DNA from: Dehalococcoidia bacterium
GTDB lineage: Bacteria; Chloroflexota; Dehalococcoidia; UBA2979
Length of the DNA: 40,921 bases
Assembly: GCA_029246995.1 (NCBI GenBank)
Contig: JAQWMB010000027.1
Location: forward strand, 1 to 40,921
Direction: 5' to 3'
Shown: piece by piece, positions 30,323 through 40,921 of the stretch
Layout: the number at the start of each line of letters is the position of its first letter
Position numbering within the stretch: the stretch's first letter is position 1
The notes under the pieces: generated by a model
Told to the model about the DNA's origin: nothing
What the model saw: only the letters and a program-made list of their open reading frames with translations
Databases searched by the model: none
Program-made: the position numbers and the translations under genes

Positions 30323-30353
30323 TTAAAGATTAAATTTGATGATAGGCATGTTT

Positions 30354-31205
30354 ATGGTAAAACCATTTATTAAATGGGCAGGCGGTAAGTCAAGTATTCT
30401 TAATCAACTAATTGATAATTTACCAGAGCAATTTAATAATTATCATGAACCAATGCTTGGAGGTGGAGCACTATTACTAAATAATATGCAAAATGATGTA
30501 ACTAATAGAAAATATTTTGCAAGTGATTTAAATGAAGAGCTTATACAAACATACAATGTAGTTAAAAGTTCATTGGGTCCATTAATTATGAAATTAAGAA
30601 AAATTGAAAAAGAATATTTAAATTCTAGTCTTATCGATCGTGAGCAGCTTTTTTATAAAATTAGAGCTCAGAGATTACAAAATCCAATAAGTATAGCAGC
30701 AAGGTTTATTTTTTTAAATAAGACATGTTTTAATGGCTTATATCGAGTGAATAAAAGTAACCAATTTAATGTTCCTCATGGTAAATATAAGATGCCTAAA
30801 ATCTTGGATGTAAGCAATCTTCAGAATATTTCTCAGATACTACAAAAATTACATTTACGCCAACACAATATTAATAAAGGGTATAAATTTGCTAAGAGTA
30901 ATGATTTTGTTTATTTTGATCCTCCATTTTATCCAATTTCCAAAACAGCTGATTTTACGAGTTATACTACAGATAAATTTTCACATGATGCACAATTAAA
31001 ACTTAAGTGGATTGTGGATGATTTAACGAATCGTAAAGTATATGTTATGTTGTCTAATTCTGATCATCCGTGGATTTTAGGTGCCTATCAATCAAGTGCA
31101 TATATGATTAAAGAAGTAGAAGCTAGGAGATCATTGTCTTCTAATGTTTTAAGTCGTGGTAAGATTAATGAACTAATAATTACAAACTATCACATGATTA
31201 ATTAA
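30354..31205 (+). CDS. Dam-type adenine-N6 DNA methyltransferase
   Basis: A 283-residue D12-class methyltransferase, probably of GATC-type specificity by resemblance to Dam/DpnM. It has the motif FIKWAGGKSSIL at the N-terminus, EPMLGGGALLLNN (SAM-binding), FIFLNKTCFNGLYRVNKSNQFNVPHG, and the catalytic VYFDPPFYPISKTADFTSY (Asp189). The catalytic tetrad reads DPPF instead of the usual DPPY. The start ATG 30354 is chosen because the family begins about here and AGG sits 7 bases upstream; earlier in-frame starts exist back to 30336. No restriction enzyme gene adjoins it, so it may be a solitary regulatory methylase. Confidence 0.88.
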   Translation: MVKPFIKWAGGKSSILNQLIDNLPEQFNNYHEPMLGGGALLLNNMQNDVTNRKYFASDLNEELIQTYNVVKSSLGPLIMKLRKIEKEYLNSSLIDREQLFYKIRAQRLQNPISIAARFIFLNKTCFNGLYRVNKSNQFNVPHGKYKMPKILDVSNLQNISQILQKLHLRQHNINKGYKFAKSNDFVYFDPPFYPISKTADFTSYTTDKFSHDAQLKLKWIVDDLTNRKVYVMLSNSDHPWILGAYQSSAYMIKEVEARRSLSSNVLSRGKINELIITNYHMIN

Positions 31206-37902: not shown

Positions 37903-37927
37903 GACATAACAAACGGCGATGGTAAAG

Positions 37928-39115
37928 ATGAATCAACCCTTAAATGATATTTGTATAATTGAATTTGGAGCTTCTGTAGCAGGCGCTGCTTGTACAAAAA
38001 CCTTTTCTGATTATGGTGCTAGAGTTATAAAAATTGAACCTTATGATGGAGGTAAATTGCGTAGAATACCACCATTTAAAAATGACATTCCAAGTATTAA
38101 TAGTGGTGCGTTTCACCTAGCTTTTGATTCTGGCAAAGAATCTGTCATTATAGATTTTTCTAGTAATTCTGGTTTAGAAATTATAAAAGAGCTTTATAAG
38201 CTTGCTGATTTAGTTATATATGATTTACCTCCTTCAAATATTGAAAAATTACAATCTGTCCTTGATAAGGAATCTGGCCCAAGTACTGTGTCGATTACTC
38301 CTCATGGGTTACAAGGCCCATATAAAGATAGAATCGAAAATGATATTTCAACTCTAGCATGGACAACAAGGATGTATAGAAATTCTATAGAGAATGAGCA
38401 GCCTTTACGTAATGCTCCAGAATCAACATTAGTACAAATTGGGCATACAGCAGCTGCAGTTGGAATTGGAATTTATTGGGGTCATCATCATGATAAAATT
38501 AGAAGGGACGCAGAAGTATCTGGAGTAGAAGCAGTACTTGGAAATGTTGATACTGGCTTTGTAAGTTGGGTTTTTACTGGGAACCTGCCTCAGAGAATTG
38601 GTGGTCAATTGAAAACAAGATATCCAACTGGCATATACCCATGTAAAAATGGATATATTGTATTATCTGCGAATGAAGAACCTTGGTTTTCCAGACTTTG
38701 TATTGCTATTGGCCATCCAGAAATTCTTAAAGATCAAAGATTTACTGAATTTAGGGAAGATAATTGGGAGGCTTTTATGACTTATCTTGGTCCTTACCTT
38801 GAAAAACATGATAAAAATTATATTTTTACTCATCTTCAAAAACATGGAGTCATGGTTGCTCCAGTTTTAAATGCATCGGACTTACTGAATGATTCTCAAG
38901 CTATAGCACGTAAATCTTTTATTGAAATAAAAGATGATAAAAATGGCGATTTTCATTTTGCTGGAGCCCCTTTTCATATGAATCAAATTAATGATCATAG
39001 TTTTCAATTAATGGCTGCTCCGGAACTTGGAATGAATACAAATGATGTACTTGGTGAGATAGGATATAGCGCAAATGAAATTATAGCGTTATTTCGAGCA
39101 GGAGTAGTGGGTTAA
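37928..39115 (+). CDS. Family III (CaiB/BaiF) CoA-transferase-like subunit A, catalytic Asp not evident
   Basis: Family III CoA-transferases move CoA between carboxylic acids through an aspartyl-CoA intermediate. The 395-residue protein has the family's start (FGASVAGAACTKTFSDYGARVIKIEPY), TPHGLQGPYKDRIEND and TRYPTGIYPCKNGYIVLS. At the position where the catalytic Asp is expected, this protein reads STLVQIGHTAAAVG, with Val169 where the neighbour has Asp. It may be a non-catalytic partner. Start: ATG 37928 aligns with the start of its paralogue at 40479 (MNQPL versus MEQPL); ATG 37919 is also in frame. It is followed after 1 base by subunit B. Confidence 0.85.
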   Translation: MNQPLNDICIIEFGASVAGAACTKTFSDYGARVIKIEPYDGGKLRRIPPFKNDIPSINSGAFHLAFDSGKESVIIDFSSNSGLEIIKELYKLADLVIYDLPPSNIEKLQSVLDKESGPSTVSITPHGLQGPYKDRIENDISTLAWTTRMYRNSIENEQPLRNAPESTLVQIGHTAAAVGIGIYWGHHHDKIRRDAEVSGVEAVLGNVDTGFVSWVFTGNLPQRIGGQLKTRYPTGIYPCKNGYIVLSANEEPWFSRLCIAIGHPEILKDQRFTEFREDNWEAFMTYLGPYLEKHDKNYIFTHLQKHGVMVAPVLNASDLLNDSQAIARKSFIEIKDDKNGDFHFAGAPFHMNQINDHSFQLMAAPELGMNTNDVLGEIGYSANEIIALFRAGVVG

Positions 39116-39116
39116 A

Positions 39117-40361
39117 ATGAGCAATCATTCATTAGAAGGTATTAAAGTTGTGGAAATGGCTGAAGCATGGGCTGGGCCAGTAGGAGCTTCATTATTAGGT
39201 GATATGGGGGCTGATGTAACAAAGATAGAATCATACCCTAGGCATTCTTTAACTCGGCCAACTTCTTCAAGGTATGCAACAATGCCTGGCAATGGTCCTG
39301 TTTATGAAAGAGATGCCTTGCATCATCAAGGTAATAGAAATAAGAAAAACCTTGCAATGGATTTACGTACAAAGTTTGGCAAAGAAATAATGAGAAAAAT
39401 ATTATCTGAAGCAGATGTTTTTATTGAAGGCTATGCAGCTGGTAAAATTGCTCAATTAGGGTTTGATTGGGAGGAAGTACAAAAAATTAATCCTAATTTG
39501 ATAATGATATCTATAGCCGGATGGGGCTTAGCGGGACCATATAAAAATATGGTTACTTTAGGTGCTGGCTTAGATGCAACAACTGGTCATTTATCAGTAC
39601 GAGGTTATCCTGAAGGTGATTTTGTTGATACGCATCCAAATTTTCATTCTGATGCTACTGGGTCATCAACTATTTTTTTTGCTATATTGACTGCCTTAAT
39701 ACAAAGAAATATTACTGGTTCTGGCACTTTTATTGATCTATCACAATGGGAAGCATTAGTTTGGCAATTTCCAGCTATTTTAGCAGATTGGTCAATGAAC
39801 AAAAGGATTCCTGCTAGGCTAGGTAATGCAGATATGCATATCGTTCCACACGGTGTTTATAAAACTGCAGAGGATGATAAATGGATTGTCGTTGTTGCAG
39901 AAAATGATGATCAGTGGGCAAGGTTATGTGAAGTTATTAGTCATTCCAATTGGGCTGATTTGAGCCATGCTTATTCAAGCATTATAGGTAGATTAAAGGG
40001 TCGAAAAGAGATAGATGAAGCAATTGAACAGTTTACTATAAAATATAATGGTTTTGATTGTGCTGATTTATTACAAAAAAATAACATTCTTGCTTCTCCA
40101 GTCGTTACACCTCCAGATGTCTTGCTTTCCAAGCAATTATATGAAAGAGATTGGCATAAGACAATAGAGCATAAATGGACTGGGCCAGTTATGGTAGGTG
40201 GATTTTTGTGGAATGTAGAACCTGATAATCTAGATTGGAATATACCGACTGCTCTAGTTGGTGAGCATAACAAAGAAATTTTATTAAAATTAGGCTATAG
40301 ATCTGATGAAATAGATGCTTTTTATAAAAAAAATGTTATCGGTAACAAATACTCAGATTGA
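39117..40361 (+). CDS. Family III (CaiB/BaiF) CoA-transferase subunit B, catalytic
   Basis: A 414-residue member with the full family pattern: VVEMAEAWAGPVGASLLGDMGADVTKIE, NRNKKNLAMDLRT, LIMISIAGWGLAGPYKN, and the probable catalytic Asp179 in HPNFHSDATGSS. The C-terminal half has HGVYKTAEDDKWIVVVAENDDQW and SPVVTPPDVL. It starts one base after the upstream gene's stop and so should be made in a fixed ratio to it, which is consistent with a heteromeric enzyme. Acid substrates are unknown. A small inverted repeat (TGATTAGT 40359-40366 / ACTAATCA 40376-40383) follows but lacks a T-run. Confidence 0.9.
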   Translation: MSNHSLEGIKVVEMAEAWAGPVGASLLGDMGADVTKIESYPRHSLTRPTSSRYATMPGNGPVYERDALHHQGNRNKKNLAMDLRTKFGKEIMRKILSEADVFIEGYAAGKIAQLGFDWEEVQKINPNLIMISIAGWGLAGPYKNMVTLGAGLDATTGHLSVRGYPEGDFVDTHPNFHSDATGSSTIFFAILTALIQRNITGSGTFIDLSQWEALVWQFPAILADWSMNKRIPARLGNADMHIVPHGVYKTAEDDKWIVVVAENDDQWARLCEVISHSNWADLSHAYSSIIGRLKGRKEIDEAIEQFTIKYNGFDCADLLQKNNILASPVVTPPDVLLSKQLYERDWHKTIEHKWTGPVMVGGFLWNVEPDNLDWNIPTALVGEHNKEILLKLGYRSDEIDAFYKKNVIGNKYSD

Positions 40362-40478
40362 TTAGTCAATTTTTAACTAATCATACATACTCAACTAATA
40401 ATACATTTAGTATTTGTTTTTTTGTGAAATTATTATAGTATTGATATCTAGCAATTCTACAATCATTATGAGGGAAGC

Positions 40479-40921
40479 ATGGAACAGCCACTAGTTGATT
40501 TAAGAGTTCTTGAAATTGGTGGCAGTGTCGCTGTATCTGCAGCTGGAAAAAAATTTGCTGATTTTGGTGCAAATGTTATAAAAATTGAACCACCAACAAT
40601 AAGTGAAGTCCGAAAAATACCTCCATTTCCAGATGATAATTTTCATATTGATCATGGAGCTATGCATTTAGCATTTGATACTAGTAAAAAGTCAATGATT
40701 TTAGATTATTCTACAAACTCAGGTAAAGAAATTCTTAAACGAATGTCTTCTGATTCTGATTTAATTATTATTGACTTGCCTGCAAAAGATTCAGAGGAAC
40801 TAATTAATTTAATTAATAGTGATGCAGGATCATCAACAAATATTGTAACTATTACTCCACACGGTATGGATGGCCCTTATAAAGATCGCGTTGAAAATGA
40901 TTTATCAATTTTTGGTTGGTC
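40479..40921 (+). CDS. Family III CoA-transferase-like protein, paralogue of subunit A (partial, cut by window end)
   Basis: Starts at ATG 40479 with AGGGAAG just upstream; 147 codons are visible before the window ends. The translation (MEQPLVDLRVLEIGGSV, then FADFGANVIKIEPP, RKIPPFPDD, MHLAFDTSKKSM, TPHGMDGPYKDRVEND) aligns throughout with the gene at 37928, not with the one at 39117. It is therefore a second copy of the A type. The expected catalytic-Asp region lies beyond the window. Confidence 0.88.
   Translation, partial: MEQPLVDLRVLEIGGSVAVSAAGKKFADFGANVIKIEPPTISEVRKIPPFPDDNFHIDHGAMHLAFDTSKKSMILDYSTNSGKEILKRMSSDSDLIIIDLPAKDSEELINLINSDAGSSTNIVTITPHGMDGPYKDRVENDLSIFGW

Follow-up and report, generated by a model that had tools for sequence, protein, structure and literature searches.

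The window analysed here comprises 40,921 nucleotides and covers positions 1-40921 of contig C18 (174 kb) in a draft genome of 1.19 Mb. At its end lie three neighbouring genes, all on the + strand and each with a match to the family III CoA-transferases (PF02515). The first gene, A (37919..39115), encodes a protein of 398 aa; translation probably begins at the ATG at 37928 rather than at 37919, in agreement with the conserved start of its relatives. The second gene, B (39117..40361, 414 aa), is separated from A by a single base, as was noticed in the original prediction. The third gene, A' (40479..40921), is cut by the window end and in its complete form spans positions 40479-41678 of C18. Beyond the window, 13 bases after the end of A', a fourth gene of the B type, B', is found at about 41692-42954 of the same contig. 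The PF02515 scores are 184 bits for A, 271 for B and 200 for the complete A', and all four proteins are far over the Pfam cut-off. A and A' share 48% identity along their full length and B is of a different type, which agrees with the alternation first described for the three genes. A repeat of the pair had also been proposed, with a B-type partner after the third gene as its check; the presence of B' bears this out, and the gene order on the contig is A-B-A'-B', two tandem two-gene pairs. The whole draft genome contains 30 matches to PF02515, fragments among them.

The array is flanked by argC and by genes for an RF-1 domain protein, PNPOx and NhaA. A search of this neighbourhood for a pathway found none, the argC/RF-1-domain/PNPOx/NhaA flanks being kept solely in near relatives. 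Several apparent conserved neighbours in GC-rich loci were rejected as shadow ORFs. Scans for promoters and terminators gave results at chance level, and no NCBIfam equivalog reached its cut-off for A or B. Elsewhere in the window, a lone gene for a D12-class adenine DNA methyltransferase occupies positions 30336-31205.

When named genomes were scanned with the A-type alignment, the near relatives of A came only from Chloroflexi/Dehalococcoidia MAGs, save for one contig labelled Legionellales. The label SAR202-type, used below for this marine bacterium and its kin, is inferred from these relatives and from the CaiB/BaiF expansion published for SAR202. The exceptional contig (L042, NZJM01000058.1, Legionellales bacterium MED1261 by title) shares both the A-B-A'-B' array and its flanks at 72% identity; it is probably of SAR202 type and mis-binned. 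Besides L042, two further named contigs (L044 and L050) have the double tandem. A sister MAG (L048, QGNP01000002.1) has just A'-B' at the syntenic place, between the same flanks, and the pair was therefore gained or lost as a unit.

Family III enzymes act through a catalytic aspartate, Asp169 in FRC. Alignment with Escherichia coli YfdW (FRC type), YfdE and CaiB places Asp179 of B (codon 39651..39653, + strand), the predicted nucleophile, at this position, as had been read from the sequence before, and B' has an Asp there too. The same position is occupied by Leu171 in A (codon 38429..38431, + strand) and by Ile in A'. The original prediction was right that A is devoid of the catalytic Asp and one residue off in naming Val169. 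The corresponding stretch of A-type paralogs (PESTLVQ, PYAGIVQ, PHVADIQ, PYTTSMQ) aligns free of gaps at the Asp place, and the residue is therefore Leu171 (counted from the ATG at 37919; Leu168 from 37928), which rules out Val. In an AlphaFold model of A (pLDDT 85.9), Leu171 is the third residue of a helix that spans residues 169-192. The same helix of Mct spans residues 163-186 and has the catalytic Asp165 as its third residue (PMC9196870). The acidic residues of A closest to the old site are E140, invariant in 33 A-type relatives, and D142, nearly so. D142 aligns with Glu140 of FRC and its equivalent is also found in the Asp-less chain of BbsEF, the succinyl-CoA:(R)-benzylsuccinate CoA-transferase of the toluene pathway (PDB 9fn0, 9fol, 9fun); D142 is thus unlikely to be a new nucleophile by itself. 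Another Asp of A in the active site would have spoken against the original prediction, and the alignment, with Leu171 at the site, points away from one.

The asymmetry between the two types is maintained in 33 SAR202-type A-B pairs, four of which belong to the source genome and the others to its relatives. The Asp is present in all 33 B proteins, and 32 of the A proteins carry T, A, E, L, S, V, I, M, H or Q instead. The one Asp-bearing A is the source genome's copy on contig C17 (C17:96533-97711). The Asp of this copy looks like a chance event at a free position, since its ortholog in the sister genome G001 has Thr and its own CoA-binding stretch is nonetheless lost. The Asp-bearing C17 gene (L032:12531-13712) is followed by two B-type genes (A-B-B) and has an MFS transporter gene directly upstream; such a transporter accompanies the paralogous cluster of the C17 type in several genomes and is absent beside the array of the window. 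The CoA contacts of A and B were transferred by alignment from Mct, in which the equivalents Arg75, Asn100, Phe101 and Arg104 hold CoA (PMC9813914). In all 33 pairs, B carries a basic side chain at YfdW position 75 and an aromatic one at position 97; neither is kept in A, which is also three residues shorter than B just after position 97. Asn96 of YfdW is missing from B, as it is from A. Judged by these positions, A appears to have lost the residues that bind CoA.

The pairing of the two types extends well beyond the array. The source genome and three SAR202-type relatives contain 109 family III domains, 66 with the Asp and 43 without; the sequences are related and the counts are not independent. 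Of the Asp-less domains, 39 have an Asp-bearing partner, either adjacent or in the same fused protein. Among the other four, one is at the end of its contig (C3) and one close to it (G011 C23), a third belongs to a broken gene (G011 C5:6611), and the last (L161, G011:C5:48135-49343) is an apparent orphan with no partner adjacent. All 23 other stand-alone domains have the Asp. A single Asp is found in 40 of the 43 neighbouring pairs and two in the other three, and no pair is without one. The Asp-less member comes first in 32 and second in seven, 21 of these being fusions. Two comparison genomes, Nocardioides daejeonensis (nine domains) and Bradyrhizobium sp. LHD-71 (50 domains), contain few Asp-less domains; all nine of these are paired, and all 36 stand-alone domains have the Asp. 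The rule is therefore not special to the SAR202-type lineage. Over the six genomes, the 55 neighbouring or fused pairs comprise 49 with exactly one Asp and six with two, and none lacks it altogether. Asp-less domains make up 39% of the total in the four SAR202-type genomes versus 12% in Bradyrhizobium sp. LHD-71. Several Asp-less halves have a Glu in the catalytic place (C27 and C28 of G000; C4, C16 and C17 of G007). Glu is the nucleophile of the family I CoA-transferases, so these halves may not be silent.

At the level of sequence, these results support the earlier proposal of a dedicated non-catalytic subunit: the Asp is absent from 32 of 33 A proteins and never lost from B, and A is both conserved and co-inherited with its partner. 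Very probably, A-B and A'-B' are obligate heteromers in which each dimer has a single active site, to which B would contribute the Rossmann domain with the Asp, and A the small domain. In Mct and its relatives the two chains interlock, and each pocket is shared between them, one chain supplying the Rossmann domain and its partner the small domain (PMC9196870). The A-B dimer would be such an interlocked dimer of family III. Its working pocket would consist of the Rossmann domain of B, with Asp179 and the CoA site, closed by the small domain of A. There, Asp179 would attack the donor acyl-CoA to give an aspartyl anhydride and then an aspartyl-CoA thioester, from which the acceptor, a carboxylic acid, would take the CoA. 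The mirror pocket in the Rossmann domain of A, which lacks the Asp and has an impaired CoA site, would be silent. The role of A would then be the assembly of the dimer and the shaping of the acceptor pocket, and the site of B would require it. A further proposal, which we regard as speculative and rather unlikely, is that A, A' and other paralogs are interchangeable specificity modules for several B catalytic subunits in one cell, giving many substrate ranges from few catalytic chains in a small SAR202-type genome; E140-N141-D142 and Gln173 of A might then form a second, non-catalytic acid-binding site.

The drift of the Asp place over ten other residues is what would be expected if A were a paralog of B in decay, retained by chance. 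The dN/dS of A, however, is 0.08-0.17 in most comparisons (0.27 in one) and close to that of B, with synonymous sites close to saturation in the more distant pairs. These ratios indicate that A is under purifying selection and not decaying. The mean identity among relatives is 50% for A against 53% for B, and 33 intact pairs are found. Decay is refuted by the purifying selection and can hardly be credited. The pairwise distances of A and B are also correlated (r 0.87, matched by 0/10000 permutations in a Mantel test), an agreement that points to co-inheritance and in which operon linkage and physical contact are not told apart. Good conservation would also suit an A that is an enzyme in its own right, either a homodimer using E140 or D142 or a catalyst of the racemisation or lyase chemistry of the fold; the constancy of both acids and the racemases among family III folds count for it. 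On the other hand, the counterpart of D142 in FRC and in the Asp-less BbsEF chain, the loss of the CoA-binding positions, and the presence of a B alongside every A-type gene found make an independent activity of A improbable.

The remaining alternative assigns the activity to a homodimer of B, with A as a separate regulator or as a decoy that competes for B. It draws on the Asp that B keeps and on the many stand-alone Asp-bearing members of the family. Against it, 19 natural fusions with the Asp-less half first, distributed over the four genomes, indicate that both types can function together within a single chain, and the crystal of BbsEF contains both chains. A free regulator is accordingly very improbable, and the heteromer with a single active site remains the preferred reading.

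The unexplained expansion of CaiB/BaiF-type transferases in SAR202 has been taken to represent many separate enzymes acting on refractory carbon (PMC5395668, PMC6306507). Under the heteromer reading, about 40% of the expanded CoA-transferase domains of the lineage are probably non-catalytic partners. If so, the number of distinct transferase activities is lower than the gene count, and expression of such a gene by itself is likely to fail. The pairing rule tells which genes should be annotated and co-expressed together.

Among known systems, FRC/YfdW, YfdE, CaiB and Mct share the fold of B, for which the interlocked dimer and the Asp mechanism are expected. These enzymes are homodimers with two Asp, whereas A-B has one Asp-bearing chain. 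Active members of family III have the Asp at FRC position 169, and by this measure B and B' belong with them and A and A' do not. By fold alone, the model of A is about equally near YfdE, SUGCT and BbsEF (TM about 0.8-0.87). DddD, a fused two-domain DMSP CoA-transferase/lyase, has one catalytic Asp, in its second half. It resembles the A-B pairing by description, with two family III halves in one protein, and fused proteins elsewhere in the source genome have the same order, an Asp-less half and then an Asp half. A and B, unlike DddD, are separate ORFs. DddD-like matches have been reported in SAR202 (Landry 2017, PMC5395668).

Among solved structures, the two BbsEF chains are closest to A and B in sequence, and each protein matches its own chain best: A matches 9fn0_A (1e-27) and B matches 9fn0_B (1e-48). 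Counted in the alignments, the residues at the Asp place are Tyr171 in chain A and Asp178 in chain B, and the title of PDB 9fol names a 'D178-CoA adduct'. A family III heteromer whose only catalytic Asp lies in the B-type chain is therefore experimentally known. A-B has the same gene architecture, two adjacent genes for unlike family III chains, one with the Asp and one without. It differs from BbsEF proper in that A and B lie in clades of their own, not with BbsE and BbsF, and that no toluene-pathway genes (bbs/bss operon) are found near the array. Another pair of the source genome (C13:13506-15976) is nearer to BbsEF (E 4e-43 and 2e-78, versus 1e-27 and 1e-48 for A and B); in the tree, in which several deep forks are weak, this pair groups with the two BbsEF chains, and A and B form separate branches. 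SmtAB of Chloroflexus, the succinyl-CoA:malate CoA-transferase to which the original prediction appealed, is a two-gene family III enzyme from the same phylum. Sequence comparison suggests BbsEF as the better precedent, given that it supplies the nearest solved relatives and has the same one-Asp asymmetry. The single-Asp heteromer architecture is thus already known from BbsEF; as far as the literature consulted shows, what appears to be new is the clade, the occurrence of the pair as a double tandem, and the count of the probably non-catalytic share of the lineage's expansion.
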